Positions 3,090 through 32,013 of a stretch of DNA of 33,060 bases are shown piece by piece. Each line of letters opens with the position of its first letter. Position 1 is the first letter of the stretch. The stretch spans positions 1-33,060 of the forward strand of contig NW_003105218.1 in assembly GCF_000003605.2 (NCBI RefSeq), in the 5' to 3' direction. The position numbers and the translations under genes were made by a program. The notes below the pieces were generated by a model. The model saw nothing but the letters and a program-made list of their open reading frames with translations. It had not been told where the DNA came from and did no database searches. The stretch comes from Saccoglossus kowalevskii (Eukaryota > Hemichordata > Enteropneusta > Harrimaniidae).

Positions 3090-4368
3090 GAATGGACCGA
3101 ATTCGTCGAATCGGCTGTAGAAGGAATTGTAGTATTTACACTGGGTTCACAGGCTAACATCGGCGAAGACTTGGAAAAAGCAACAAAGTTTGTTAAAGCG
3201 TTTGCCAGATTGCCGCAAAAAGTTATTATGAAATACGAGGGGAATCCACCAAATGGCCTTGGCGAGAACACCAAACTTAGCAGTTGGATTCCACAAAATG
3301 ATCTTCTAGGTAATAAATAGACAATATAACTTTATTAGTTTAGCAGTTTTTATTTCTTCAAACCAACACAGGAATCAAAATTTGCGTATTCAAGGCACGT
3401 TTAAATGCCACAGTAATCTATTCCAACATATATTTATTTGTATGTTGATGTAAAATCACAGATACATATATTCTTCGCTGTAACATTGGTAAAAGGTTGT
3501 GCGATCATTTCACATATTTTCAATATTGAGACTAAGAACAAGTAACACGTGGATATATCGTCTAACGACTATTCGTTATTGAATTCATTACATAGAATAT
3601 ATGCAATATGCAGAACGTATCAAGGTGATATATTCTATACATATTAAAAATTATCAGCTAGCCATTTATAGATTGATCAAACACCATTATGATTGTTCTG
3701 ACTTACACCATATGTTCAATAGGTCACCCAAATACCAAAGCATTTATAAGCCACGGAGGTATCAATGGAGTAAACGAGGCTATCTACCACGCAGTGCCTT
3801 TTATTGGCATGGCGTTATTTGCGGAACAGTTGGAGAATGTAGAAAGACTCGTTAACAAAGGAATGGCAATTTCTTTAGATTCAAAATCCTTCACAGAAGA
3901 TGATGTCTACAATGCTGTAAAAAGGGCGATTGAAGACCCTAGGTAAGAGGTTCTTACTGACCGACTGTTAATCAATAATATGTTATAATTAAAATTGTAA
4001 CTCCATGGGTCTTTTTGAAAAAAGGATAACTTGAAGATTGCACACATACTGATTTCTAGCACAAATTATTTTTTCGTAGGTACAAAGACAATGCCGCTAG
4101 ATTATCCAGTATCCAGAGAGATACTCCAATGCCTCCAGGAGATACAGCTGTATATTGGGTTGAACACATTTTGAAGTTTGGCGGTGATCACCTCAAACCA
4201 GCATCCCTCGAACTAAATTTAGTCCAGTATTTACTTCTCGACATTGCCGTGTTTTTACTGATTGTAGTAGCCATTGTCATTATTATTTCAAAGCTAGTAA
4301 TGAAGCAGATATTTAAAATCTGTTGCAAACTAACGGATGTCAAATTGAATAGAAAAAAACAACAGTGA
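3090..4368 (+). CDS. UGT-A: UDP-glycosyltransferase, exons 2-4 (5' end off window)
   Basis: This is the C-terminal half of a UDP-glucuronosyltransferase-family enzyme (GT1), which transfers a sugar from a UDP-sugar to small lipophilic acceptors in the ER lumen. Exons are 3090-3309, 3723-3942 and 4080-4368, all with AG acceptors and GT donors and matching phases (1, then 2). The spliced product shows the donor-binding signature WIPQNDLLGHPNTKAF, then SHGG, NEAIYH and FAEQ. A hydrophobic transmembrane segment and a short basic tail ending RKKQQ follow. That end is a KKXX-type ER-retrieval motif. The first exon must lie upstream of base 1. By analogy with UGT-B, intron 1 is about 4.8 kb. The stop is TGA at 4366-4368. 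Family assignment is very sure; the sugar and substrate are unknown. Confidence 0.93.
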
Positions 4369-6296: not shown

Positions 6297-7417
6297 AGTC
6301 ACCAATGCGCTTTTGGTAGAAATTTGACGCTTGGCAAAACTCTGCAGAAAACCTTCATAGACTGAGCAAATCATTCCTCTTTATCTTTTTCACCTGTGTT
6401 AGAAACCTGTTTTTATCAGATGTTTTTTATTCATGATTATTTTTGGAAGACATCAGGGGATTGTGTTGTCGCTTCAACTCAGGACACGCTATACACGGAT
6501 GATCCATGTTCGATAAATTGCACAAAAACATGCAGATCACAAGATTATATCTCCAAAATACAGCCTCCTTTCAAACATACTGAAAAGAAAAGAAATTAAA
6601 TAAATTGCTTTGCACAAGAAATTGGACGTAATTCAAAACAGATCAAAGTAAAACGACATAGCCAAAATGGTTTCCGAAATCCACAACAAACTAATTTTGG
6701 AGAAACAACATTTTGAGATAAAAGTAAAAAAACTTTTCACCACCAGCTGTGTAGAAGTAATAAATGCTGAGCAGGTACATATTTTTAGTCAATAGAATAG
6801 TAAATAGGGATTTACGGATGACTTCATTTTGTTGGGACCAAGTCTTTAGATTGACAATTTTGAATTGGTGCTAGTCCTTTGGCCTGGCAGTTTTTTTTCG
6901 GCATGTACGAGGTTGCTTAATTATGAAGGACAATCTTATTGAGATGTATTCGATACTAAAATATTGAATGGTGCAAAGTGTATTGAAGTATGACTGAGTG
7001 TAGTAAAATATGCTCACAAAACACTGAGATTTAAGGATTTAATTCAATCTCTTTTTAAATAGTATGACACTATTGCATATATACTTCATGCATGTAGACT
7101 TTTTGATGAGAATTAGCTATGGATACGGGTTGGTTACAAGAAACACACTTTATTTAAGAAAAATGAAGGCCATACCAAGTATGAATTACGTATTAAGTAT
7201 GAATTTAAACTAAATTTGTTCACACACATTTGAGATTCGATTCTGGAATGGTGAAAATATGTGATTTTAATGCACTGTGGGACATAAAATGAATGCCATT
7301 CAGCCACCTTGATTAGAATCATGAAATAAATATGTGTGCATATGTCTGATATAATGTGAGAAGTTTGAATCTGTTATGTATATGATGTGATACATATGTA
7401 TGAATGAACACACAGTT

Positions 7418-7453
7418 GGGTGCATGCCAATAAGCCATTTTCCGTAGTTTGCG
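7418..7453 (+). repeat. Left terminal inverted repeat, copy 1
   Basis: The best-matched core is 7436-7453. Outward of it the match to the right end continues with a gap (gggtgcatg against gggactcatg). The exact outer limit is uncertain by a few bases. Confidence 0.65.
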
Positions 7454-7464
7454 TGACCCACGGT

Positions 7465-7481
7465 CACGTGACACAGGTCAA
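7465..7481 (+). promoter_or_regulatory. Subterminal motif, left side, copy 1
   Basis: cacgtgacacaggtcaa. The complement of 13576-13592 is the same 17-mer with one change, so the motif lies just inside both ends in inverted orientation. It also lies about 100 bases upstream of the transposase ATG. It could be a binding site for the THAP domain or a shared promoter element; this is inference. Confidence 0.5.
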
Positions 7482-8167
7482 GCTATCCTCGCTAAAGCAT
7501 AGCAACGCCATTGTTACACGCGTGAAAGCAGCAACAATACGACTATTACTTCGGCTGATTACTTCTTCAATGGGAGCTAAAAGATGTGCCTACGGAGAAT
7601 GCAAGAGCGATTCCCTATATCCAGATGGATGTTCGATGGCTGGAATATATTTTATTCGATTCCCAAAGTCGAAAACGCAACCCGATAAATGCGACCGCTG
7701 GATCACCGCATGCTCCAGAGCAGACGATTTTAGGAGGCATCGTATCACTCAGGATACATACGTGTGTTCTCTTCATTTTGTTGGCGGAAAAGGACCTACA
7801 GATGAACAGCCAGACCCAATTCCTGCAACAGCAAGAAGTGTAGACCTTCGACTATTCGAAACGAAAAAAGTTCGACCACCACCGAAAGACAGATCTAGTA
7901 CCGGAAATGCAAAGAAACGACAACGTAATCAAGCTTCGGTAAGCACTTTCTTTCCGACGGAAATCGTCAAGACATTGTTTCATTGTTTCGTTACTCTTTT
8001 AATTATCAAAATTTCTTTCAACAAATTTGTTTTTCAAATGTCAATCAGAAGCCCAGGGCTGTTATTTGTTTTATTCAGTGCGTTTTATTTTAAATACGAA
8101 TATACATGTTTTGCAGCGTCGAGATTTATTTTTATCGCGAGATACATGAAAAACAAAAAGACAGTTT

Positions 8168-8200
8168 AACCATGGAGGTCTTTTTTTTACCTCCATGGTT
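8168..8200 (+). repeat. Hairpin with poly-T loop in transposase intron 1
   Basis: A perfect 12-bp stem (aaccatggaggt 8168-8179; acctccatggtt 8189-8200) encloses a C plus eight Ts. In unit 2 (about 24605-24637) the stem has one mismatch. It sits in the first intron of the transposase gene. Confidence 0.75.
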
Positions 8201-8275: not shown

Positions 8276-10294
8276 ATGGTTGTCTGACGACACACTTAAT
8301 TCTTTCATAAATACAAAACTTATTTCCTGCCAGTGGGCTTTTTTTTAATTCAAAGAATTACCGGTATGTCAGTATTTTTTTGGAAAAAACATTTATGATT
8401 ATTAACTAGTTTATTATGGTACTTTTTTTTTATAAATTGAGAACCTGAATTGTTTATGTGCACTTACTTTTCCAGCCATGTAATGAAAACAACAACAACT
8501 TTAATTTATTATACCATGCTACACAATCTCCCAGTGAATCCTTAGCAGAGTCTACAAATATTTCACTAATGAAAAATTCCAGGAAAGATGCTGTAATTAT
8601 TGGTAAGTTTTTATGGGTTTTAGTAATTTTGACTATTATATTTAGATTGTTTCTGGACTACATGCCTTCACATATTTTTTTTTCTGCTTGTGGGAAGATG
8701 AAAAATATAAGACAAGCCAAAGCATTTCTTCCTTGCATACACACCCATTTTGTTCTCAATTTATTTTCGGTTGAAGTCAAGTAAGAACATTGGGTAGATT
8801 TTTTTCAGGCCTTTAAATTCCATACTTTTTTTTAGATGTATCAACATATACTCCAGAGATTGCTCAGTGCAAACCAATGAAGACTGTGCCATCCCATTGC
8901 AGTTTATCAACACAGACTGATTTAACTATAGAACACATGGAACCCTACAGTGACAGGGCACTCACAGATAGAAATTATATGAAAAGAGAACTCATTATAA
9001 AGGATATTGAAAGAAATGCTAATCTGCAATTTTACACAGGTAATTAAACTAATGTGTTGTTATTTATTTATCTTTATTTAAAATATGTGTTTTCACCTTT
9101 CTGCTGTAAATAAGCTATCCTTTTCATTTAATATTCCTATTATTTTTTCTAGGGTTAGCATCACTGCAACTATTATACATTTTTAAATGGATCAAATCAA
9201 AGGGAGATAGACTTACAATTTGGAAAGGACAAGACACTCTTGTAAGTTTTGATTCAAATTCTCTATTGTGAAAAAATATCAGCTACTGGTATATTTACTG
9301 CACACATAAAACTTTGTCATCTGTCACTGGTTTAGTGTCCATTTTCCAACAATAGAATCATCATCATATTAACAACTGAAAGTACCAGACTTCAATTTTT
9401 ATACATGACAAATTTATATATTTTGGTATGGTAGTTCAACATACTTCAGCAAGAAATGGTTGGCATAATTTAATGTTTCAATCATATTTTAAAAATCATT
9501 GTATTTTATTGTAATTTGTGTTTTGCTACTTAGGATAATCCAGTCAGTCAGGGTGGTCACTGTCGCGCTCTTACAAAAAATGAAGCCTTTTTACTGGTAC
9601 TTGTCAGACTACGAAGAGGAATGCATATAGAACATTTAGCCGACTCATTTGGCATTGCACCTGCCACAGTCAGTCGCTACTGTACAACATGGATTGAGTT
9701 TCTGAGTAAAGAGTTGTCATTTTTAATAAAGTGGCCTAAACAAGATTATATTAGATCATCAATTCCATCGACATTTCGTCATTTTAAAAAGACAGTTGCA
9801 ATTATAGATTGCACAGAATTCTTTATCCAGAAACCTTCCATACCATCATCACAAAGGATTACATGGTCTAGTTACAAACACCACAACACCTTGAAGACCC
9901 TTGTGTCAATATCGCCAACTGGTTCCATATCTGGTTGTGGTCTGATTCCATATCTGATCGCAAACTTGTGCAGGAAAGTGGGTTCCTTGACAATGTCAAC
10001 CATGGGGATGATGTCATGGCAGATCGCGGATTTTTAATACGTGATCTTTTGGCGTTGCATGGAGCCACACTAAACATACCGCCATTTGCACATGGTAAAC
10101 AACTCAGTGCAAGAGCAGTGACCAAGACCAGGAGGATTGCAAGTGCCCGAATATATGTTGAACGAGCAATTGGACGTTTGAAAAATTTCAAAATTCTTCA
10201 AGGTATATTTCCACTGAAGTCCAAAAAAATACTGAATCAAACTGTCCAACTCTGTGCTGCATTGTGCAATATTGACAGTATGTTGGTCAAATAG

Positions 10295-11008: not shown

Positions 11009-13474
11009 TCATTGAATGGCACAGTAATTATTAACAGTCCTTTTTTTCGTATAAATAACTAGGTCGCATTCCATCAAACCATAAATACCTAACTGGCCTT
11101 GTATTTGGACATAGTAGCCTGCACTTTCAGAAAGATGCCAGTTTCTACCTTCCTCAAGCACCCCCTCTCTTTAGCAGCATCCTTTGGTGACTTTAGTCGC
11201 AAAGGATAGGGACAATTAATTTCTAATAGCAGGCAAAAAAATGGCTTCTCAATGTAAACTCTAAGTCCAGGTACTTTGATTTTTAGGCATCTGTGTTTTT
11301 TTCTTTCAACCATAAGATACATTTCCCTGCCCTTACTTTCCTTTCTTCATCCCCACTCTAGAGCAGGCAAATCCCCCGACGGTGGAACAGCACAACGAAT
11401 GATTAAATCAACTACCTACCTTAGATGGGTCAGCAGATGTTTTTTTTGTCAATGTTGTAGCCCTACTTGCAACACGTTTAAATGCAGATGCTGTCAAGAT
11501 CCCATTCCGCATTGAACGCCAAGTAGGGTTTTCAGACTGCCCAACAGTCTCTGTGCCAATGAAATTTACCTCTTCAGGTGTGTATGTCAGGTTTCTAAGA
11601 AACATTTCAATCAGGTCTTGAATAGAAGAAACTAAATTTTCTGGCAAATGAATCTTTAAAAAATTCTGAAACTTCACTGTAAGTGATAAGTTTAGGCAGT
11701 CTTGATTTGGGTCTTTTTTAACATCTTTTGGCACATCTGTTGAGGGCAGCATTTGGTATTATCTGTAAGAGTACAGAAAAAAATGTTTGCAAAAACAAAG
11801 ATATCACACATTTCTCATTAAATAAAGAGCTCAAAACATTAACCACTGACAAAAATTGGCTTATATGATATATCCCCACCATACTAGGTTCCCTATTCAC
11901 AATGCTGTAAACATGTTTTTTCATATACTGAGGTTTCTTATGAAATAATAACTCTGTTCTGCCAATAAGGAAATAGTAAATGCTATTTACAATCAGTTAT
12001 GAAGCCATTAAATCAAAATGATTTTGCGGCCATGATGAATGAAACCTGTGGCTATGACCTCTGAACTTTTGGATTGTGTAAAGAAATGCAAACAACATAC
12101 GACTAACCTGTGAGAGTCCTTGAGCAAATGATTCTTCCTGCTTCTATGTCAATGGTTTTCTGTCTAATGGGTCTCTTGGATCAAAATCTTCCTGGCCTAT
12201 GTTATTTTCTTTCTGGACGCCATAGCTGGAAAATAATAATATAAAACAAAATACTGCTGTAAAACATGTTGAAAAAGCGACATGCAATTTTAACAAATTG
12301 TGGTAAAATGACGTAATAGCGAAATTTTGATTTAGCGAATCTCTCTTGTCATTGTTGTTTGCGGTTTTCACAATACATTTGTACTTGTCTGTCGCATGCC
12401 AAATGTGCAGTTAACACCTCCATAAAAAATGTCAAGTGTAATTAGGAAGTGCCCCAGATTTGTATGTTCCGGATTACTGTTTTACAGTATATTGCACAAC
12501 ATCAATGGATGTAAGCCTATTTCCTATTTAGCCTATTCATTTTGAGATAAACATATTATTATGAAAAAAAAAACATACCGTGCAAATAGTATCTTGAGAC
12601 GTTTAACAGAAACAGGTTCATCGTGTTCCATTGGTCTTCTTTTCCACTGGCAGGAACCATCAGTTACTGATGTTTTATTAAATGCCTCACGTTCATAAAG
12701 TGTTGCAGCCACATGACGACATGCTCCATCTGCACTGTAAACATAAAATTATCAAAATTAAAATATTTCAGTTAAGCAACTTGGGAAATTATACCTCATC
12801 CATTTACTTAAATTTCCACTTTGCTCATTGTTTCACAGCAGTAAAATACTTATTTATGGAATTCCTTGTACTTTGTGGATATAGATAATACAACTGCACA
12901 CTGAGACTATTGCATGTATTATATTTTATTTAAAAAATGATTTCTTGTAAATTAAAAATGGTATATGATATCATAGAAAAATAAATAACATTGTACCTTA
13001 CCCTCCAGGACATTCACAATATGCAGTCATAACTTCAGAGTGTTCTTTTGTCAGTAGAAACCACAAACTGTATGTTGACTTGTTAAGATATGTTTTGTCT
13101 TTTTGAGTAGGTTTAACCTGGGCTCGAAATGCACCAACAGAGCTACTCTCAGATATCGCGGTGTATTCCATATCCAACACATGACCATCGTAATATAACT
13201 TATGGTCTTCATAAGACTTGTATGCCCTGAGTTTTTTCCAGTCATAATCCGATCGGTGACACATTAAGTAGTTAAACACATCACACAGGCCGAAATCGGG
13301 AACGCTAGTAAAATCAGAAGAATAATTTGGAAGACTCGGAGGGTCAAGGTTCAGGTTTCGGACTGCCTTTGCAAGCGTTACGAGAATATTCTTTCTGTAG
13401 TTGGAAGTTGACACGCCGAATTTCCTCAAAAAGTCCTTGAGCTTTGGAACTGTCAATTTATCGATGTTATCCAT
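11009..13474 (-). pseudogene. SAP-SWIM-YqaJ protein of the transposon, copy 1
   Basis: Minus-strand gene with exons 13474-13002, 12734-12579, 12225-12108, 11762-11420 and a residual 11290-11009. The ATG complement of 13472-13474 begins MDNIDKL. A SAP-like DNA-binding helix pair follows (LTVPKLKDFLRKFG). A SWIM zinc finger spans the exon 1/2 junction (CECPGG then ACRH). Exon 4 carries the YqaJ entry motif WRSMRNGILTASAF. The last piece shows GLRVYIEKPF, LLEINCPYPLRLKSPKDA and, in another frame, YYVQIQGQLGIYGLMECD. YqaJ is a lambda-exonuclease-like fold; its role in transposition is unknown. Lesions shared with unit 2 are an in-frame TAG after RKPLT in exon 3 and a frameshift after ETGIFLK. The YqaJ core, including the SPDG-type segment, is largely missing. 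Private lesion: a 20-bp deletion near 11748 that shifts the frame. Confidence 0.78.
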
Positions 13475-14586: not shown

Positions 14587-17500
14587 ATGGCCGCACTTTC
14601 TAATACCCGATGGATCGGTGCTATTGTTATAGCGTGTGTGATCTGCCCAGTCTTGTGCAGCAATATCCTAATTCTCCCTGGCGCCCCGTTCGGGAATTTC
14701 TACATTACTATATCGAGATTTGGAGAACTGCTGGCCATGAGAGGTCATAACGTTACCGTGTTGATAAATGATCTCTACTACCAAAGATTTGCAGGACTGA
14801 TCAAAGAACAACGAACATTTATGAATTTTGAAGACTATGAATCCGGCTTCAATGAATTCCCCGATGCATACAACCGAGTCACAAAAAGTGCACATATTGC
14901 ACTAACAATTTCTGAAATACTTCGCATTTTTTATGTTTTGGCAGATGAGACGGAGGCTTTTATTCAAGACAGTAACAGCATAAAACGCTTGAATGCCGCG
15001 AACTTTGATCTAATTCTTGCTAATGCCTTTAACCCAGGCTTCGCTCTAATTGTTGATACACTGCGTGTACCGTTCGTCAGTGTCTCCACCATGAGAGCTT
15101 TACCGATGATAGACGATTTACTTCATGGTTTGACTTCAAACCCTGCATATGTACCAGCGGTAAAAACAGGATACTCAGATGAGATGACGTTTCCTCAGAG
15201 ACTGGGCAATACATTTGCATACCTTGCATCGGCTGCAATGTTTGAGTTTCTTTTGCTAAAACCATTCAAAAGTATACAGCAAAGGCATAACATCCGACCA
15301 GAGCTTTCATACAGGAGTTTATGTAGAAATTCGGAGTTAGTACTTTTCTGTTCTGATTTTGCATTCGATTATCCCCGCCCTATGATGCCGCATGCTATTT
15401 ATATTGGTTCATTAACAGCAAGAACCCCAGACCCTCTTAGTCAGGTGAGTTTCTTGAAAATGTTTATTGTTATATATATATATATATGAATTTCGATATA
15501 TTCATGAATGTATTTCTTTTATCGGATATCGGTTAGGTCCACTCGAAAACGGAAACTGCGTAAATTTCGAAGTGCTACGTATGATATGTTCTGTGTGAAG
15601 AACAGAAATTCCCAAATTTGCAGTCGTTTTACGCCGAACTTGGAGAACTGATACACTAAGTTGCTCTTTTCATACTTTCAGCTGAGAGTTTGTTGTTGTT
15701 TTACTTTCAATTTAGTTAGCGTAAATCACGCACAGTGAACTACATAGGTGTAACGCTACTGGTTTGATATGATAGATTTCATTTACTTTTTCATATAAAC
15801 CTGCTTCCGAGGCCCGGTTTAATGACTCGGAAACCATATTTCAAAATAACCAGCTTTAACTTACTAGTTTATGGCAATCGTCCAATGCATGCGACAACTT
15901 TATATTTTTTGTTGTGTGCATATATTCGTACTGGTGTCGTATATGCTGTATAGAACTAACTTGCATTATTTTACATCTGTCACCGTAACGCCACAAGTTA
16001 CAGCGTGCCGTAATTTTGCGGTATTTTACGGGGTATTTTCATACTACCATATTTGGAAATGCGAATTCCAAATATGGAATGATTACGCCCGTAAGCGTCC
16101 TCTAATAATAAAAACAAACATGGCTGCCACCAGGATTTGACCGGACTCCATGCAAAGAAGTTCGCTGATTCTGTTCTAAACCTTTTGAATTTCGGCATTT
16201 CCATGATGTATCCTTGAAGGGAAAAGATGTATAATAATTAGGTTATTACGAAGATACCTCAAAGTATGCACGAAGACAGTACTTCGGCAGTATCGACCGA
16301 TGCGCAGCGGAGGTCGATGTGACAGCGTATTATTATTATCTTCGTAATAACCTTATATTAATTCGATCATGCCGGAGTGCTTGTCTACCGATTGTGATTA
16401 TTCATTACATGAACATGCCAATTTAGCGGTAAACTATTATTTATTATACACTTATTCGCAGTATCCGAACTCAGTATTATATCTGTTATTGCGCCCTCGC
16501 CGATCACATGTTAGATTATATTAAACGTTAGGTTATATTAAATAAATATTTTGACGTGGAAGTACTTTGTAGATGACAAGCCTAGAGTAACTAACATATT
16601 TAGATTCAGCAAACACGGCATTGCTGCAATAGTTGCGAATCTAAGTTACATTTACAGAAATGTGGTTTTAGTTAGATTACAAGTCTACTAGATTATTTAT
16701 TTTATTAAACATGTGTTATTGCGATAGCTGATAGCCTAATTCATGCTGATCGATTTTGTGTTCATGATAGATGATCTAAATTACATATATATCACAGTGT
16801 AAACAAAATACTATAAATAGTAAGTAGTGAAATGCAATACTTGATATGATGGCCCATGTAATTTTCAGAGAGAAATTTCAGATCTTGTTTGTTTATAAAG
16901 ATCATGTGCACTCATGGGTTACTGCATTGTTCTGAAATGGTGCGTATCGACCGAGTTTCTTGCGAATGGCAAGTCGGTGGAGGGTAACTAGTAAAATTTC
17001 ACTAGTCTGGGATTCCGACCCTGGATCTACTACCTTCTGACAGTCTGGAACGTGTCGGCACGTACCGAAATGTGTGTGTGAGCGGCCGGAACGAGACGCC
17101 ACGTGCCAATAAAAATCGATCTAGTTCCTCATATAAAGTCGGGCCGAGATTTACTGCCTGACAGGTCGGTACGAGCCGAAATCACACTCTCGGTGGTGAC
17201 TTAAAAGAAAATATATGTAATACTAGTATGAACTGGCGGTCAATGTAAATAGGTGTTGTACGTAGTAATGACAAATAAAGAGATCGACGAATGAGGGCGA
17301 TATTTCGGTACGAGCCGAATGGCTTATTCAACATATGTAAGACAGCTACTAAATATCATACGTTTGATAAAGAAAGAACTTCAATCGTATTGTGCTAGAT
17401 AAATTCACCTGCAAAATATTGCGTTGATGTTAATTATAGATCAAAATTATGCAGAATGACTTGTTCCTGCGAAATACCAATATGATTACGTGTTTCTCAG

Positions 17501-20500
17501 TCGTACTAAATCTAAGCTCGTGACGTTATTTTTCGGTTGGTGATTTATTGTTAGTCTTACAGAGTTTCGCATGTCCATTCAAAGCACAATGTATTGCTGA
17601 GAAAAAATCTGCTCTCATGATGATAGTAGGCAGTTATAGAATGGCAAGCGCTCTGGGTTTTGACCTCGGTGAAAACAAAGGTAGAAGCTCTCAGGAAACT
17701 GTTCGTTGGGTCTGTGTCTTTCGAGTCTCTCCTGAACAGTACTGAACATATCTATGCCCACTAAAACGTCTGGACTGGTTGACAACAAAGAATTGAAATT
17801 TTACTAAAATATAAAACTGCACATGTTAGACTTAAAAGCAATGGCCAATTTCTATTTGATGATAGCTACCAGCTATCAGGACAGAAATCGTTTTTTTTTT
17901 CGGCACGCGCCGATTCGGTCCTCACCGTTCACATACACGTTAACGCCACTATAGACAAACACACCATTTTCACCAATGCCTTGCAAATTTCATATAAAAT
18001 ACACAAATATGTTGTGAATAATTAAACCATACATTCGTCGGGCATTTATAACACTAAATATGAACTCTTCCAACTATAATTTATACCAGAACTGTGACGA
18101 CCAACCTGTTTAGGGCCATGATACCCAAAAGCAGGACCGTAACGCCCAGCAATCAATCTAATATCCCTTTCCCCAAATAACCGTCACAAGAGTGGATATT
18201 TAGAAGTACGCATAATAAAAGTTGAACGGAAATCGATGTTTTATCAGAATTTCCGTTTTTTTTAGGTTGGACCCAATGAAAGGAAATGTAGTTATTCCGC
18301 TGACGGTTACGCGACGGTTAGACTTCCGGTTATCTGACGGTTACGCGACAATTAAGCACGATTTTTCTTTCTATCCGATATGTAACCGGAGTCGGAAACA
18401 CGTGATTCCAAGCAGTGTATCAAAGTGAACACGTACACCACATGTACATGCATGTACACCACATTTTGTCACGTGATATATTGTTTGACCACTGCTCTTA
18501 TCAAGGACGTCAGGCAAAAGTGTTGGGTCAGTGATACATTCTGTTTTGAAATATTTGTGGAATAATGGAAATGTAAGTGTATTAGTTACATGTTCCTGCT
18601 TTCACGGGTAACTAGCTAAAATAATAATTAATAATAATATACGTAATAGATATACACACAAACTGTGTCACTATATCTGTATTTAATTTCTTCCCCAATT
18701 TGACACGTACGGGGTGAATAGAGAAAGCCGTTAGTTATCAATATTTAACAGCGCCGTCACCGACGGAGAACAATTGCGCGTGCTTCCCCTGCGGGATTGC
18801 TTGAGTGTCTGTGTTCCGCTATACAGAAGAAACTCCGCCAAAGGACTATAAAATACTAGTACACGGGGTATGACACACCGCGTACCAGCCTTCTCGTTCG
18901 TGAACATTATTTATGGTATTCGTTGAGGACGGTCGAGCACCAAATAACCAAAGCCTCGTTATTTTAGCGTAAAATAGTACATAATTTGTATGTGCTGGTA
19001 AAAAAATCGTAGTGAAATACAGTAATAAATCAAATTACTCATGTACATACTGAAAAACATTGCTTGATCGATCCTATTGTTCAAGTTATCACACTCTGAC
19101 GTCGGCGTACAAATATTGTTTAAAATCGCAATAACTCGGGGAGTTGGTTGTAAACAAGATACAATGTATAGATAGCTGCAGTACTGCGACGGTATATCGT
19201 TTTATTTATCGCCGTAAGAATATTTCACCTGTCATCGAAAATATAAATATTTAAATATGCACAAAACGGCCTCTACGCTTCTGCTGACAGCGATACTTCA
19301 TGAAAAGTGACCGCACTGTAGCGATTATTGAAGTTTCTAGATTGAACAACAAACACTCGATATTGATAGTGAATTACGTTTTCGAATAACTTAAGATTGT
19401 GTGTACCTTGTTCTATAAACGGCAAAATACACTATAACACGAAGAAGAGCATGGTACACGTAAACAACGTTACGAGCGAACACCTACTGGTCAGCTTGAG
19501 TCGTGTCATACCCCGTCTATTTATTTTGAAGAGCCGGTTAAAGCGTACTACAATTCGAACGTTTTTAAAAAGCATTGCAGTCTAAAATGGGCGCAAAACC
19601 AATACGGAGTGAAAACATGGTACCAGAGTTATGCGTGTAGTACTGCTTTTTTTCGTATTGTAATATAATATTACTAATAACTTATTCTAGCCAAGAAGGA
19701 CAATATTCATGTATTATTTCTAGTATTATATTGCCTGGTATCCATGTATTTATGCTGATTGTAAAAATGCAACCGAGTATGCAAGTAAATCGGCAATGTA
19801 TTTGCTATATAGCCTTGCATAACTTGTAAACTAGCATTATAATAGTACATGTACTACATAAACGTATGTTACTTCTAAATGGGCATTGTAGTAGTATATA
19901 AACGTGCATTACTTGTAAACGGGCATTGTATTACTACATAACCGCACAATGCTTGTAAAAGAACGTGTATTACCTGCATAACCATGTATCAATTAATTGT
20001 ATTGGCTAAATAATACTTTATTTATAAATAATACTTTACGCCAAGCGGATTAAATAAAAATACTACATTCTTGAACAAAAAGAAAGGAATACAGAATAAG
20101 GTTCAATTTGATACAAAAGTGATAAAAAAGTTGACAAACCAGCTTCACAAAACTTGACAAAGATTGGAAGCTAATACATTTAATTTGCATACTTGCCACA
20201 TCAAATATATTTATATGTTACGTGAACAGGTGTAAGTGCTTCAAAACGATGTACCGAATTGTTGCCTTTTTAGGAATGGACCGAATTCGTCGAATCGGCT
20301 GTAGAAGGAATTGTAGTATTTACACTGGGTTCACAGGCTAACATCGGCGAAGACTTGGAAAAAGCAACAAAGTTTGTTAAAGCGTTTGCCAGATTGCCGC
20401 AAAAAGTTATTATGAAATACGAGGGGAATCCACCAAATGGCCTTGGCGAGAACACCAAACTTAGCAGTTGGATTCCACAAAATGATCTTCTAGGTAATAA

Positions 20501-21563
20501 ATAGACAATATCACTTTATTAGTTTAGCAGTTTTTATTTCTTCAAACCAACACAGGAATCAAAATTTGCGTATTCAAGGCACGTTTAAATACCAGAGTAA
20601 TCTATTCCAACATATATTTATTTGTATGTTGATGTAAAATCACAGATACATATATGCTTCGCTGTAACATTGGTAAAGGTTGTGTGATCATTTCACATAT
20701 ATTCAATATTGAGACTAAGAACAAGTAACACGTGGATATATCGTCTAACGACTATTCGTTATTGAATTCATTACATAGAATATATGCAATATGCAGAACA
20801 TATCAAGGTGATATATTCTATACATATTCAAAATTATCAGCTAGCCATTTATAGATTGATCAAACACCATTATGATTGTTCTGACTTACACCATATGTTC
20901 AATAGCTCACTCAAATACCAAAGCATTTATAAGCCACGGAGGTATCAATGGAGTAAACGAGGCTATCTACCACGCAGTGCCTTTTATTGGCATGGCGTTA
21001 TTTGCGGAACAGTTGGAGAATGTAGAAAGACTCGTTAACAAAGGAATGGCAATTTCTTTAGATTCAAAATCCTTCACAGAAGATGATGTCTACAATGCTG
21101 TAAAAAAGGCGATTGAAGACCCAAGGTAAGAGGTTCTTACTGACCGACTGTTAATCAATAATAGGTTATAATTAAAATTGTAACTCCATGGGTCTTTTTG
21201 AAAAAAGGATAACTTGAAGATTGCACACATACTGATTTCTAGCACAAATTATTTTTTCGTAGGTACACAGACAATGCCGCTAGATTATCCAGTATCCAGA
21301 GAGATACTCCAATGCCTCCAGGAGATACAGCTGTATATTGGGTTGAACACATTTTGAAGTTTGGCGGTGATCACCTCAAACCAGCATCCCTCGAACTAAA
21401 TTTAGTCCAGTATTTACTTCTCGACATTGCCGTGTTTTTACTGATTGTAGTAGCCATTGTCATTATTATTGCAAAGCTAGTAATGAAGCAGATATTTAAA
21501 CTCTGTTGCAAACTAACGGATGTCAAATTGAATAGAAAAAAAAACAGTGATAAAATTAATTAG
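14587..21563 (+). CDS. UGT-B: complete UDP-glycosyltransferase gene, 532 aa
   Basis: GT1-family enzyme of the ER membrane. Exons are 14587-15444, 20274-20493, 20906-21125 and 21263-21563 (stop TAG), with GT-AG borders and phases 0, 1 and 2. The ATG in caaaATGG is chosen because the signal peptide starts there (residues 1-25, ending VLCS). Residues 26-286 form the acceptor-binding domain, with RGHNVTVL at 52-59. The donor domain has W352, Q355, SHGG from 369, E378 and FAEQ at 392-395. A membrane anchor lies at about 482-504. The length matches typical UGTs. Oddities: the catalytic His position holds Phe38 and the catalytic Asp position holds Asn146. The usual GHP of the signature reads AHS at 360-362. 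The tail ends KKNSDKIN, without the KKXX of UGT-A. Intron 1 (4.8 kb) crosses the tandem-unit border. Family is sure; activity is open. Confidence 0.92.
16047..16077. promoter_or_regulatory. Inverted pair of CArG-box consensus sites (unit 1)
   Basis: CCATATTTGG at 16047-16056 and CCAAATATGG at 16068-16077 both fit the SRF/MADS consensus CC(A/T)6GG. They sit in a perfect 12-bp inverted repeat with a 7-base loop, about 600 bases into intron 1 of UGT-B. It may be a regulatory site or only a hairpin. Confidence 0.5.
16240..16353. repeat. 114-bp foldback or MITE-like unit (unit 1)
   Basis: A perfect 17-bp inverted repeat, aggttattacgaagata (16240-16256) and its complement (16337-16353), encloses 80 bases. 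This resembles a tiny non-autonomous DNA transposon. No clear target-site duplication is seen. Confidence 0.6.
19815..19990. repeat. About 40-bp minisatellite in UGT-B intron 1 (unit 2)
   Basis: Same degenerate units as 2637-2810, with the same unit number and several base changes. Confidence 0.7.
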
Positions 21564-23350: not shown

Positions 23351-24005
23351 GAATATGATCAGTCACCAATGCGCTTTTGGTAGAAATTTGACGCTTGGCA
23401 AAACTCTGTAGAAAACCTTCATAGACCGAGCAAATCATTCCGCTTTATCTTTTTCACCTGTGTTAGAAACCTGTTTTTATCAGATGTTTTTTATTCATGA
23501 TTATTTTTGGAAGACATCAGGGGATTGTGTTGTCGCTTCAACTCAGGACACGCAATACACGGATGATCCATGTTCGATAAATTGCACAAAAACATGCAGA
23601 TCACAAGATTATATCTCCAAAATACAGCCTCCTTTCAAACATACTGAAGAAAAGAAATTAAATAAATTGCTTTGCACAAGAAATTGGACGTAATTCAAAA
23701 CAGATCAAAGTAAAACGACATAGCCAAAATGGTTGCCGAAATCCACAACAAACTAATTTTGGAGAAACAACATTTTGAGATAAAAGTAAAAAAACTGTTC
23801 ACCACCAGCTTATGTATATGATGTGATACATATGTATGAATGAACACACAGTTGGGTGCATGCCAATAAGCCATTTTCCGTAGTTTGCGTGAGCCACGGT
23901 CACGTGAAACAGGTCAAGCTATCCTCGCTAAAGCATAGCAACGCCATTGTTACACACGTGAAAGCAGCAACAATACGACTATTACTTCGGCTGATTACTT
24001 CTTCA

Positions 24006-26767
24006 ATGGGAGCTAAAAGATGTGCCTACGGAGAATGCAAGAGCGATTCCCTATATCCAGATGGATGTTCGATGGCTGGAATATATTTTATTCGATTCCC
24101 AAAGCCGAAAACGCAACCCGATAAATGCGACCGCTGGATCACCGCATGCTCCAGAGCAGACGATATTAGGAGGCATCGTATCACTCAGGATACATACGTG
24201 TGTTCTCTTCATTTTGTTGGCGGAAAAGGACCTATAGATGAACAGCCAGACCCAATTCCTGCAACAGCAAGAAGTGTAGACCTTCGACTATTCGAAACGA
24301 AAAAAGTTCGACCACCACCGAAAGACAGATCTAGTACCGGAAATGCAAAGAAACGACAACGTAATCAAGCTTCGGTAAGCACTTTCTTTCCGACGGAAAT
24401 CGTCAAGACATTGTTTCATTGTTTCGTTACTCTTTTAATTATCAAAATTTCTTTCAACAAATTTGTTTTTCAAATGTCAATCAGAAGCCCAGATCTGTTA
24501 TTTGTTTTATTCAGTGCGTTTTATTTTAAATACGAATATACATGTTTTGCAGCGTCGAGATTTATTTTTATCGCGAGATACATGAAAAACAAAAAGACAG
24601 TTTAAGCATGGAGGTCTTTTTTTTTACCTCCATGGTTTAACAAACCTAGATGTGGACAATGGATACTTATCAATGTTCGTGTCTGAGGTGTCTTTTTTAC
24701 ACATCTCAGACAATGGTTGTCTGACGACACACTTAATTCTTTCATAAAAACAAAACTTATTTCCTGCCAGTGGGCTTTTTTTTTAATTCAAAGAATTAGC
24801 GGTATGTCAGTATTTTTTGGAAAAAACATTTATGATTATTAACTAGTTTATTATGGTACTTTTTTTTATAAATTGAGAACCTGAATTGTTTATGTGCACT
24901 TACTTTTCCAACCATGTAATGAAAACAACAACAACTTTAATTTATTATACCATGCTACACAATCTCCCAGTGAATCCTTAGCAGAGTCTACAAATATTTC
25001 ACTAATTAAAAATTCCAGGAAAGATGCTGTGTAATTATTGGTAAGTTTTTATGGCTTTTAGTAATTTTGACTAATTATATTTAGATTGCTTCTGAACTAC
25101 ATGCCTTCAACATATTTTTTATTCTGCTTGTGGGAAGATGAAAAATATAAGACAAGCCAAAGCATTTCTTCCTTGCATACACACCCATTTTGTTCTCAAT
25201 TTATTTTCGGTTGAAGTCAAGTAAGAACATTGGGTAGATTTTTTTCAGGCCTTTAAATTCCATACTTTTTTTTTAAATATATCAACATATACTCATATAT
25301 ACATACATATACAGAGATTGCTCAGTGCAAACCAATGAAGACTGTGCCATCCCATTGCAGTGTATCAACACATACTGATTTAACTATAGAACACATGGAA
25401 CCCTACAGTGACAGGGCACTCACAGATAGAAATTATATGAAAAGAGAACTCTTTATAAAGGATATTGAAAGAAATGCTAAATCTTGCAAATTTTACACAG
25501 GTAATTAAACTAATGTGCTGTTTATTTATTTATTTATTCATTTATTTAAAATATTGTGTTTTCACCTTGTCTGCTGTAAATAAGCTATCCTTTTCATTTA
25601 ATATTCCTATTATTTGTTCTAGGGTTAGCATCACTGCAACTATTATTATACATTTTTAAATGGATCAAATCAAAGGTAGATAGACTTACAATTTGGAAAG
25701 GACAAGACACTCTTGTAAGTTTTGATTCAAATTCTCTATTGTGAAAAAATATCAGCTACTGGTATATTTACTGCACACATAAAACTTTGTCATCTGTCAC
25801 TGGTTTAGTGTCCATTTTCCAACAATAGAATCATCATCATATTAACAACTGAAAGTACCAGACTTCAATTTTTATACATGAAACATTTATATATTTTGGT
25901 ATGGTAGTTCAACATACTTCAGCAAGAAATGGTTGGCATAATTTAATGTTTCAATCATATTTTAAAAATCTTTGTATTTTATTGTAATTTGTGTTTTGCT
26001 ACTTAGGATAATCCAGTCAGTCAGGGTGGTCACTGTCGCGCTCTTACAAAAAATGAAGCCTTTTTACTGGTACTTGTCAGACTACGAAGAGGAATGGATA
26101 TAGAACATTTAGCCGACTCATTTGGCATTGCACCTGCCACAGTCAGTCGCTACTGTACAACATGGATTGAGTTTCTGAGTAAAGAGTTGTCATTTTTAAT
26201 AAAGTGGCCTAAACAAGATTATATTAGATCATCAATTCCATCGACATTTCGTCATTTTAAAAAGACAGTTGCAATTATAGATTGCACAGAATTCTTTATC
26301 CAGAAACCTTCCATACCATCATCACAAAGGATTACATGGTCTAGTTACAAACACCACAACACCTTGAAGACCCTTGTTTCAATATCGCCAACTGGTTCCA
26401 TATCTGGTTGTGGTCTGATTCCATATCTGATCGCAAACTTGTGCAGGAAAGTGGGTTCCTTGACAATGTCAACCATGGGGATGATGTCATGGCAGATCGC
26501 GGATTTTTAATACGTGATCTTTTGGCGTTGCATGGAGCCACACTAAACATACCGCCATTTGCACATGGTAAACAACTCAGTGCAAGAGCAGTGACCAAGA
26601 CCAGGAGGATTGCAAGTGCCCGAATATATGTTGAACGAGCAATTGGACGTTTGAAAAATTTCAAAATTCTTCAAGGTATATTTCCACTGAAGTCCAAAAA
26701 AATACTGAATCAAACTGTCCAACTCTGTGCTGCATTGTGCAAAATTGACAGTATGTTGGTCAAATAG
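24006..26767 (+). pseudogene. THAP-DDE transposase, copy 2 (frameshifted, splice sites damaged)
   Basis: Equivalent exons are 24006-24374, 24912-25040, about 25276-25500, 25623-25714 and 26007-26767. The THAP exon is intact, with small changes from copy 1 (Ser to Pro, Phe to Ile, Thr to Ile). Exon 2 has lost its AG acceptor (now AA), and a 2-base insertion creates a stop near its end. The exon 3 acceptor is also lost, and about 17 AT-rich bases are inserted nearby, which supplies a possible new AG in front of agattgctcag. Exons 3 and 4 each carry a 3-base insertion. The DDE exon has the same frame break as copy 1, around 26403-26408. The first half has decayed more than the catalytic exon. 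Confidence 0.82.
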
Positions 26768-27480: not shown

Positions 27481-30043
27481 TCATTGAATGGCACAGTAAT
27501 TATTAACAGTCCTTTTTTTCGTATAAATAACTAGGTCGCATTCCGTCAAACCATAAATACCTAACTGGCCTTGTATTTGGACATAGTAGCCTGCACTTTC
27601 AGAAAGATGCCAGTTTCTACCTTCCTCAAGCACCCCATCTCTTTAGCAGCATCCTTTGGTGACTTTAGTCGCAAAGAATAGGGACATTTAATTTATAATA
27701 GCAGGCTAAAAATGGCTTCTCAATGTAAACTCTAAGTCCAGGTACTTTGATTTTTAGGCATCTGTGTTTTTTTTCTTTCAACCATAAGATACATTTCCCT
27801 GCCCTTACTTTCCTTTCTTCATCCCCACTCTAGAGCAGGCAAATCCCCCGACGGTGGAACAGCACAACAAATGATTAAATCAACTACCTACCTTAGATGG
27901 GTCAGCAGATGTTTTTTTGTCAATGTTGTAGCCCTACTTGCAACACGTTTAAATGCAGATGCTGTCAAGATCCCATTCCGCATTGAACGCCAAGTAGGGT
28001 TTTCAGACTGCCCAACAGTCTCTGTGCCAATGAAATTTACCTCTTCAGGTGTGTATGTCAGGTTTCTAAGAAACATTTCAATCAGGTCTTGAATAGAAGA
28101 AACTAAATTTTCTGGCAAATGAATCTTTAAAAAATTCTGAAACTTCACTGTAAGTGATAAGTTTAGGCAGTCTTGATTTGGGTCTTTTTTAACATCTTTT
28201 GGCACATCTATTGAGGGCAGTAGTAAGCTAAGTGCTGCAGCATTTGGTATTATCTGTAAGAGTACAGAAAAAAATGTTTGCAAAAACAAAGATATCACAC
28301 ATTTCTCATTAAATAAAGAGCTCAAAACATTAACCACTGACAAAAATTGGCTTATATGATATATCCCCACCATACTAGGTTCCCTATTCACAATGCTGCA
28401 AACATGTTTTTTCATATACTGAGGTTTCTTATGAAATAATAACTCTGTTCTGCCAATAAGGAAATAGTAAATGCTATTTACAATCAGTTATGAAGCCATT
28501 AAATCAAAATAATTTTGTGGCCATGATGAATGAAACCTGTGGCTATGACCTCTGAACTTTTGGATTGTGTAAAGAAATGCAAACAACATACGACTAACCT
28601 GTGAGAGTCCTTGAGCAAATGATTCTTCCTGCTTCTATGTCAATGGTTTTCTGTCTACTGGGTCTCTTGGATCAAAATCTTCCTGGCCCATGTTATTTTC
28701 TTTCTGGACGCCATAGCTGGAAAATAATATTATAAAACAAAATACTACTGTAAAACATGTTGAAAAAGCGACATGCAATTTTAACAAATTGTGGTAAAAT
28801 GACGTAATAGCGAAATTTTGATTTAGCGAATCTCTCTTGTCATTGTTGTTTGCGGTTTTCACAATACATTTGTACTTGTCTGTCGCATGCCAAATGTGCA
28901 GTTAACACCCCCATAAAAAATGTCAAGTGTAATTAGGAAGTGCCCCAGATTTGTATGTTCCGGATTACTGTTTTACAGTATATTGCACAACATCAATGGA
29001 TGTAAGCCTATTTCCTATTTAGCCTATTCATTTTGAGATAAACATATTATTATGAAATAAACATACCGTGCAAATAGTATCTTAAGACGTTTAACAGAAA
29101 CAGGTTCATCGTGTTCCATTGGTCTTCTTTTCCACTGGCAGGGACCATCAGTTACTGATGTTTTATTAAATGCCTCACGTTCATAAAGTGTTGCAGCCAC
29201 ATGACGACATGCTCCATCTGCACTGTAAAAATAAAATTATCAAAATTAAAATATTTCAGTTAAGCAACTTGGGAAATTATACCTCATCCATTTACTTAAA
29301 TTTCCACTTTGCTCATTGTTTCACAGCAGTAAAATACTTATTTATGGAATTCCTTGTACTTTGTGGATATAGATAATACAACTGCACACTGAGACTATTG
29401 CATGTATTATATTTTATTTAAAAAATGATTTCTTGTAAATTGAAAATGGTATATGATATCATAGAAAAATAAATAACATTGCACCTTACCCTCCAGGACA
29501 TTCACAATATGCAGTCATAACTTCAGAGTGTTCTTTTTTCAGTAGAAACCACAAACTGTATGTTGACTTGTTAAGATATGTTTTGTCTTTTTGAGTAGGT
29601 TTAACCTGGGCTCGAAATGCACCAACAAAGCTACTCTCAGATATCGCGGTGTATACCATATCCAACACATGACCATCGTAATATAACTTATGGTCTTCAT
29701 AAGACTTGTATGCCCTGAGTTTTTTCCAGTCATAATCCGATCGGTGACACATTAAGTAGTTAAACACATCACACAGGCCGAAATCGGGAACGCTAGTAAA
29801 ATCAGAGGAATAATTTGGAAGACTCAGAGGGTCAAAGAAATCACAACCCAGATCAATAAGACGTTGTCTAACGTCATCTTTTGGATCATACCGTGATTAA
29901 TCTGGGTCTTCGTCAAGGTTCAGGTTTCGGACTGCCTTTGCAAGCGTTACGAGAATATTCTTTCTGTAGTTGGAAGTTGACACGCCGAATTTCCTCAAAA
30001 AGTCCTTGAGCTTTGGAACTGTCAATTTATCGATGTTATCCAT
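27481..30043 (-). pseudogene. SAP-SWIM-YqaJ protein of the transposon, copy 2
   Basis: Exons on the minus strand: 30043-29490, 29222-29067, 28716-28599, 28253-27892 and a residual 27761-27481. Domain order is as in copy 1. Exon 1 is 81 bases longer in frame (27 codons starting EDPD) but contains a TAA in that extra part. Exon 3 has the same in-frame TAG as copy 1. Exon 4 keeps AAALSLLLPSID, lost from copy 1, but a one-base loss in an A run shifts the frame after TTLTKK. In the last piece the ExK-type motif has lost its Glu to a stop while keeping the Lys; copy 1 shows the opposite. The late frameshift after ETGIFLK is shared. Confidence 0.78.
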
Positions 30044-31155: not shown

Positions 31156-32013
31156 ATGGCCGCACTTTCTAATACCCGATGGATCGGTGCTATTGTTATA
31201 GCGTGTGTGATCTGCCCAGTCTTGTGCAGCAATATCCTAATTCTCCCTGGCGCCCCGTTCGGGAATTTCTACATTACTATATCGAGATTTGGAGAACTGC
31301 TGGCCATGAGAGGTCATAACGTTACCGTGTTGATAAATGATCTCTACTACCAAAGATTTGCAGGACTGATCAAAGAACAACGAACATTTATGAATTTTGA
31401 AGACTATGAATCCGGCTTCAATGAATTCCCCGATGCATACAACCGAGTCACAAAAAGTGCACATATTGCACTAACAATTTCTGAAATACTTCGCATTTTT
31501 TATGTTTTGGCAGATGAGACGGAGGCTTTTATTCAAGACAGTAACAGCATAAAACGCTTGAATGCCGCGAACTTTGATCTAATTCTTGCTAATGCCTTTA
31601 ACCCAGGCTTCGCTCTAATTGTTGATACATTGCGTGTACCGTTCGTCAGTGTCTCCACCATGAGAGCTTTACCGATGATAGACGATTTACTTCATGGTTT
31701 GACTTCAAACCCTGCATATGTACCAGCGGTAAAAACAGGATACTCAGATGAGATGACGTTTTCTCAGAGACTGGGCAATACATTTGCATACCTTGCATCG
31801 GCTGCAATGTTTGAGTTTCTTTTGCTAAAACCATTCAAAAGTATACAGCAAAGGCATAACATCCGACCAGAGCTTTCATACAGGAGTTTATGTAGAAATT
31901 CGGAGTTAGTACTTTTCTGTTCTGATTTTGCCTTCGATTATCCCCGCCCTATGATGCCGCATGCTATTTATATTGGTTCATTAACAGCAAGAACCCCAGA
32001 CCCTCTTAGTCAG
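31156..32013 (+). CDS. UGT-C: UDP-glycosyltransferase exon 1 (rest off window)
   Basis: This exon is the same length as UGT-B exon 1 (858 bases, 286 codons) and ends at a GTGAGT donor in phase 0. It encodes the signal peptide and the acceptor-binding domain. Against UGT-B only three base changes were found by eye, one of them altering the protein (EMTFPQ to EMTFSQ). Phe38 and Asn146, at the usual catalytic His and Asp positions, are the same. Its exons 2-4 should lie about 4.8 kb downstream of the exon if another unit follows, which would be beyond the window. Confidence 0.92.

Follow-up and report, generated by a model that had tools for sequence, protein, structure and literature searches.

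Gene and repeat organization of the locus

The window, which spans contig C38 in full (33,060 bases), carries three UGT genes on the plus strand, UGT-A, UGT-B, and UGT-C (also C38-A, C38-B, and C38-C). UGT-B is complete and consists of four exons with AG/GT splice sites, which encode 532 amino acids. Its exon 1 (14587-15444) is an open frame of 286 amino acids that covers a signal-like N-terminus and the acceptor (N-terminal) domain, including Phe38 and Asn146, and it closes with a GT donor that joins it to the other three exons. The donor-binding domain begins in exon 2 (20274-20493), the 29-residue UGT signature lies in exon 3 (20906-21125) and departs from the published pattern at one position (P to A), and exon 4 (21263-21563) encodes the end of the donor domain, a hydrophobic stretch resembling a membrane helix, and the tail RKKNSDKIN. 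The preliminary description had regarded the UGT-B frame as intact, which the open exon 1 and the four-exon model bear out. It had also assigned the same two residues to UGT-C, and we indeed read Phe38 and Asn146 in UGT-C exon 1 (31156-32013); the remaining exons of this gene would lie past the contig end at 33,060. UGT-A is represented by exons 2 (3090-3309), 3 (3723-3942), and 4 (4080-4368), and its exon 1 would lie off the contig, upstream of the start of C38.

The tail of UGT-A ends in KKQQ, a KKxx of the ER-retrieval type, and two genes on contig C2076 (C2076a and C2076b) end in KKEQ. UGT-B lacks a C-terminal KKxx. Its frame continues beyond the KK pair and ends in NSDKIN (21500-21563, compared with 4310-4368 in UGT-A), apparently through an indel at an A-run.

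PF00201 matches UGT-B over residues 39-516 of 532 (profile positions 13-494 of 499) at 350 bits, with a cut-off of 19.5, and exon 1 alone matches in the N-terminal part at 91 bits. Among solved sequences, the best matches are to the C-terminal domains of four human enzymes, UGT2B17, 2B15, 2B7, and 2B10, at 159-164 bits, that of UGT2B7 (2O6L) giving 161 bits. Searching the PDB by phmmer with exon 1 alone returned a single chance match (E = 0.44). The similarity to the solved UGT C-terminal domains and to GT1 enzymes suggests a GT-B fold for UGT-B. The hydrophobic stretches at the N-terminus and near the C-terminus were read by inspection of the sequence.

The contig is made up of two consecutive units, each about 16.5-17 kb long, which are 97-99% identical with small indels. 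This layout could be either a true tandem array or haplotypes assembled in tandem. Contig C975 carries another copy of the UGT part. Both units carry a plus-strand open frame with a THAP domain (7408-8169 and 23844-24605; the first copy matches PF05485 at 34 bits, and the second is nearly identical to it). Both also carry a plus-strand transposase of the DDE_Tnp_4 kind, presumably Harbinger-like, whose frame is broken into two overlapping frames (9534-10294 and 26007-26767; the first copy was scanned and the second has the same layout). On the minus strand, an open frame at 27888-28487 has a weak Viral_alk_exo match (PF01771, 24.6 bits) and a shorter counterpart at 11408-11758; this frame is perhaps a mobile-element nuclease.

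Replacement of both dyad residues

The preliminary description placed Phe38 at the position of the catalytic His of animal UGTs and Asn146 at that of the partner Asp. When the N-terminus of human UGT2B7 was aligned with ten genes of this genome, Phe38 fell on His35, Asn146 fell on Asp151, and a separate pairwise alignment repeated this placement. The UGT2B7 sequence used has His at position 35 and Asp at position 151. In addition, a profile built from nine exon-1 proteins, which come from eight contigs, was compared with the plant GT1 8INP, and the His of GMGH fell on the Phe38 column in a weak match (E = 0.05). The assignment therefore agrees with UGT2B7, with the His/Asp paralogs of the same genome, and weakly with 8INP, which rules out a misplaced alignment as the cause of the Phe/Asn pair. 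The N-terminal catalytic His and its partner Asp are absent from UGT-B, where His54 of the RGH motif is the sole His within residues 1-54. UGT-B does not match the pattern of the UGT1A4 and UGT2B10 kind, with His replaced and Asp retained, because its Asp is replaced as well.

Dyad residues among the other UGTs of the genome

A PF00201 search of the 572-Mb assembly (4,830 contigs) gave at least 74 exon matches. We examined 20 stretches, some partly masked (N), which yielded 15 exon-1 sequences that extend to the His column, counting those of UGT-B and UGT-C. His occupies this column in nine of the 15 (C2787a, C2787b, C1049, C1265, C3895, C349, C4731a, C4731b, and C4066), Phe in four (C38-B, C38-C, C975, and C2076), Thr in C1911, and Arg in C4657b. 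The Asp column was readable in 14 of the 15, with Asp in nine and Asn in five (C38-B, C38-C, C2076, C1911, and C2787a); Asn likewise occurs there in C975, as read from a separate 3' piece. The normal His/Asp pair is present in eight of the 15 exon 1s. Genes with dyad places masked or not found were left out of the count, namely those of C1645, C2626, and C4257, the second genes of C4657, C349, and C2076, and also C2784. Exon 1 of C127, the start of which is masked and which was read by eye, shows Glu in the Asp column.

The C2076 gene lies on a separate contig and is intact, with open exons, AG/GT sites throughout, and the KKEQ end. It carries the Phe/Asn pair in an exon 1 that is 76% identical to that of C38-B, and the two genes were grouped at 100/100 in all three trees. 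C975 is broken by deletions of 52 bp and 33 bp in exon 1, so that some of these copies do decay. Close paralogs with normal residues would, according to the preliminary description, have pointed to one decayed locus. The close paralog we found, C2076, shares Phe/Asn, whereas the His/Asp paralogs are distant from UGT-B, with 25-30% identity over the matched parts. A single decayed locus is ruled out, as C2076 also carries Phe/Asn and is constrained. Judged from the sequences, the Phe/Asn loss is common to a maintained pair of loci.

Other dyad combinations were observed as well. C1911 (L012, C1911:1123200-1126300) is a distant, intact-looking four-exon UGT with Thr/Asn at the dyad and a full donor signature. 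It adjoins C38-B/C2076 at only 51.6/57 in the all-exon tree and does not do so in the exon 1 tree. Single dyad changes were found in C2787a (L010, C2787:73900-78500), with His/Asn, and in C4657b (L020, C4657:151500-161200), with Arg/Asp. The tree indicates that the Asn of C2787a arose independently, its near twin C2787b having Asp.

The donor site

The UGT signature, as quoted in the accessible part of PMC7781194, spans 29 positions of which 15 are specified. UGT-A and UGT-B fit 14 of the 15 (P to A), C2076b also 14, and C2076a 12. Ten other genes had 0-2 mismatches, and the three of C2076a are the most among the 14 genes tested. Before the last Gln of the signature, C38 has Glu in place of the usual Asp, which is found in C2076; Glu is permitted by the signature. 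The UDP-sugar motif appears to be largely kept in C38-A/B and C2076, and UGT-B is likely to bind UDP-sugar. Several paralogs (L009, L010, L011, and L017) have DH for DQ at the end of the signature. In plant UGTs, this replacement goes with galactose donors.

Selection on the Phe/Asn genes

The comparison of C38-B with C2076 over all exons gave dS of 0.41 and dN of 0.12, with dN/dS of 0.29 (p = 1e-18), and exon 1 alone gave 0.37 (p = 1e-7). The ratio was 0.08 in exon 2, 0.21 in exon 3, and 0.30 in exon 4, the donor-side exons 2 and 3 being under tighter constraint than exon 1. A control pair with normal dyads, C349 and C4731a, had a dN/dS of 0.42 in exon 1, and C2787a and C2787b had 0.40 over the comparable part of exon 1. 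The values for C38-B and C2076, taken together with the 0.42 and 0.40 of these pairs, therefore argue against neutral drift after the dyad loss, and the dyad-less proteins look as if they have been maintained by purifying selection. C2076a and C2076b gave 0.19 over exons 2-4.

The recent copies were less informative. Exon 1 of UGT-B and UGT-C differs at 3 of 858 bases, two changes being synonymous and one non-synonymous (P203S), compared with 22 of 2291 aligned sites (0.96%) in the non-coding flanks, a difference that is not significant (p = 0.11). Divergence of 2-3% holds in other parts of the repeat unit, away from the exon 1 flanks. Exons 2-4 of UGT-A and UGT-B differ by one synonymous and five non-synonymous changes. 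Neither comparison of recent copies (A/B exons 2-4 and B/C exon 1) gave a clear sign of constraint, and we dropped the conservation of exon 1 between them as evidence of it. The preliminary description had concluded that the protein is kept from slow change in exon 1 against about 2% in introns. The count of changes stands and the protein does seem to be maintained, but this follows from the comparison with C2076 and not from the contrast with the flanks. Residues around the dyad sites were conserved at 51 of 62 positions versus 165 of 224 in the rest of exon 1, which is not significant (p = 0.18), and local over-conservation of the dyad regions was also discarded.

Possible sugar transfer without a general base

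The His-Asp pair of GT1 enzymes is thought to deprotonate the acceptor, according to the available text of PMC12728629. Because Phe38 and Asn146 occupy the dyad places, acceptor deprotonation would be impossible at that site. We consider the best reading, with a probability of roughly 45%, to be that UGT-B and its kin are transferases that need no general base and act on already-nucleophilic acceptors. They would still bind UDP-sugar and acceptor in the ER membrane, and the sugar might be transferred without a general base to an already-nucleophilic acceptor held in line with the sugar C1. Candidate acceptors would be carboxylates (with an acyl ester as the product), tertiary amines, N-heterocycles, or thiolates. 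Phe38 would give the pocket a hydrophobic acceptor side, and Asn146, which no longer has a His to orient, would serve as a neutral hydrogen-bond partner.

Published GT1 enzymes, as far as the accessible portions of the papers go, bear on this reading in both directions. The ester-forming QsFucT and SvFucT retained about wild-type activity at high enzyme load after His-to-Ala or Asp-to-Asn changes, one variant being slightly lower. The authors suggest that it can be enough to hold a predeprotonated nucleophile in position, but they conclude that the His is important for efficient transfer at physiological conditions (PMC12728629). Plant UGT76C2 and UGT76C3, with Cys for His, prefer N-glycosylation, and changing either dyad residue to Ala lowered N-glycosylation in UGT76C2 or UGT76C3 (PMC12246196). 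Human UGT2B10, with Leu for His, seems specialized for N-glucuronidation, whereas the His-to-Leu change in SfUGT33F28 greatly reduced or abolished O-glucosylation with no gain of N-glucosylation, so that His loss by itself does not yield N-glycosylation (PMC7781194). The dyad loss shared at a dS of 0.41, the donor-side exon constraint, the near-intact signature, the intact C2076 gene, and the GT1 precedents count in favor of base-free transfer. The results with SfUGT33F28, those of PMC12728629 and of the Ala variants of UGT76C2 and UGT76C3, the signature mismatches, the recent copies without clear constraint, and the p of 0.18 at the dyad regions count against it.

Selection alone is no proof of catalysis, and a protein kept by selection with both dyad members gone and the RGH His as the sole His in residues 1-54 might also be a pseudoenzyme. 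It would keep the fold and UDP-sugar binding without catalysis, and either act as a partner of catalytic UGTs at the ER membrane or sense or hold UDP-sugars or lipophilic ligands. Mammalian UGTs, according to the accessible part of PMC5075577, assemble into hetero-oligomers and thereby alter each other's activity, which would suit such a role. Strong constraint in donor-side exons 2 and 3 (0.08 and 0.21) and a near-intact signature would be less expected for a pseudoenzyme, although a sensor could need both, and we regard this explanation as rather unlikely. Since some GT1 enzymes that lack the His or carry Asn in place of the Asp are active at high enzyme load (PMC12728629, available text), the double loss is in itself no proof of a pseudoenzyme. 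Catalysis could otherwise be of the ordinary kind with a relocated base, in which His180 from the loop preceding the YVP motif, perhaps together with Asp177 or Asp176, would enter the acceptor pocket. His180 and Asp177 are common to C38-B and C2076 and absent from eight other aligned genes, His180 is the only His among the shared and distinctive residues listed, and position 180 is Leu in the broken copy C975. However, these are two of 19 H/D/E/C/K/R/Y sites exclusive to both loci, as expected of a divergent pair, and could have arisen by chance; the place of His180 in the fold is a putative one, and we find a relocated base improbable.

Loss of function appears more improbable still. The genes might be copies dying out in a tandem array, or a duplicate produced by the assembly, and the exon 1 deletions of C975, the five non-synonymous changes against one synonymous between UGT-A and UGT-B in exons 2-4, the UGT-B tail overrunning the KK pair, and the composition of the 33,060 bases as two near-identical units would all fit. 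C2076 speaks against this, being separate, intact, and constrained against C38, and so does the dN/dS of 0.19 between C2076a and C2076b in exons 2-4. We propose, more tentatively than base-free transfer, that these genes might represent a maintained UGT subfamily with both dyad halves replaced, in which distinct chemistry or a moved base at His180 has taken over, as a natural double-replacement GT1 able to function in the absence of the canonical dyad.

Comparison with known systems

The preliminary description had suggested a clade not yet described, and this fits the literature searched, which covered few subscription journals and papers in excerpt, and in which we found no animal UGT without both dyad residues. 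Insect UGT50, considered as a possible dyad-less family, is not described as such in the accessible parts of PMC6407175, PMC6429375, PMC10963899, PMC11122625, and PMC13272398, and was set aside. A search for viral relatives gave three pattern matches, none of which encodes a relative. The Phe/Asn group is known from this one animal genome. UGT annotation papers treat the His and the Asp as hallmarks of a functional enzyme (e.g. PMC6429375, in the part available). Maintained genes without either residue, beside paralogs with His/Asp, His/Asn, Thr/Asn, and Arg/Asp, could serve as a natural series on the role of each residue, which bears on whether UGTs can abandon base catalysis or turn into pseudoenzymes. 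A PF00201 match alone is no safe ground for inferring glucuronidation.

UGT-B shares with the animal UGTs of GT1 (UGT1/UGT2, e.g. UGT2B7) the PF00201 domain, the hydrophobic N-terminus, the near-complete UGT signature, and the hydrophobic stretch near the C-terminus, and UGT-A and C2076 share the C-terminal KKxx; unlike UGT2B7, with its catalytic His and Asp, UGT-B has Phe and Asn. Human UGT1A4, which is N-glucuronidating like UGT2B10, has Pro at the catalytic His, and both enzymes keep the Asp, as the preliminary description also stated, whereas this residue is Asn in UGT-B. UGT2B10 resembles UGT-B in having a non-His residue at the catalytic His, as given in the accessible part of PMC7781194. 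Plant UGT76C2 and UGT76C3 are, like UGT-B, natural GT1 enzymes without the catalytic His (PMC12246196, in part), but they are plant enzymes with a Cys-Asp dyad in which the Asp is kept. The QsFucT and SvFucT variants come close in that GT1 enzymes lacking the His, or with the Asp changed to Asn, can carry out acyl transfer at high load (PMC12728629, available text). These variants are single laboratory changes, whereas UGT-B presents a natural double replacement.
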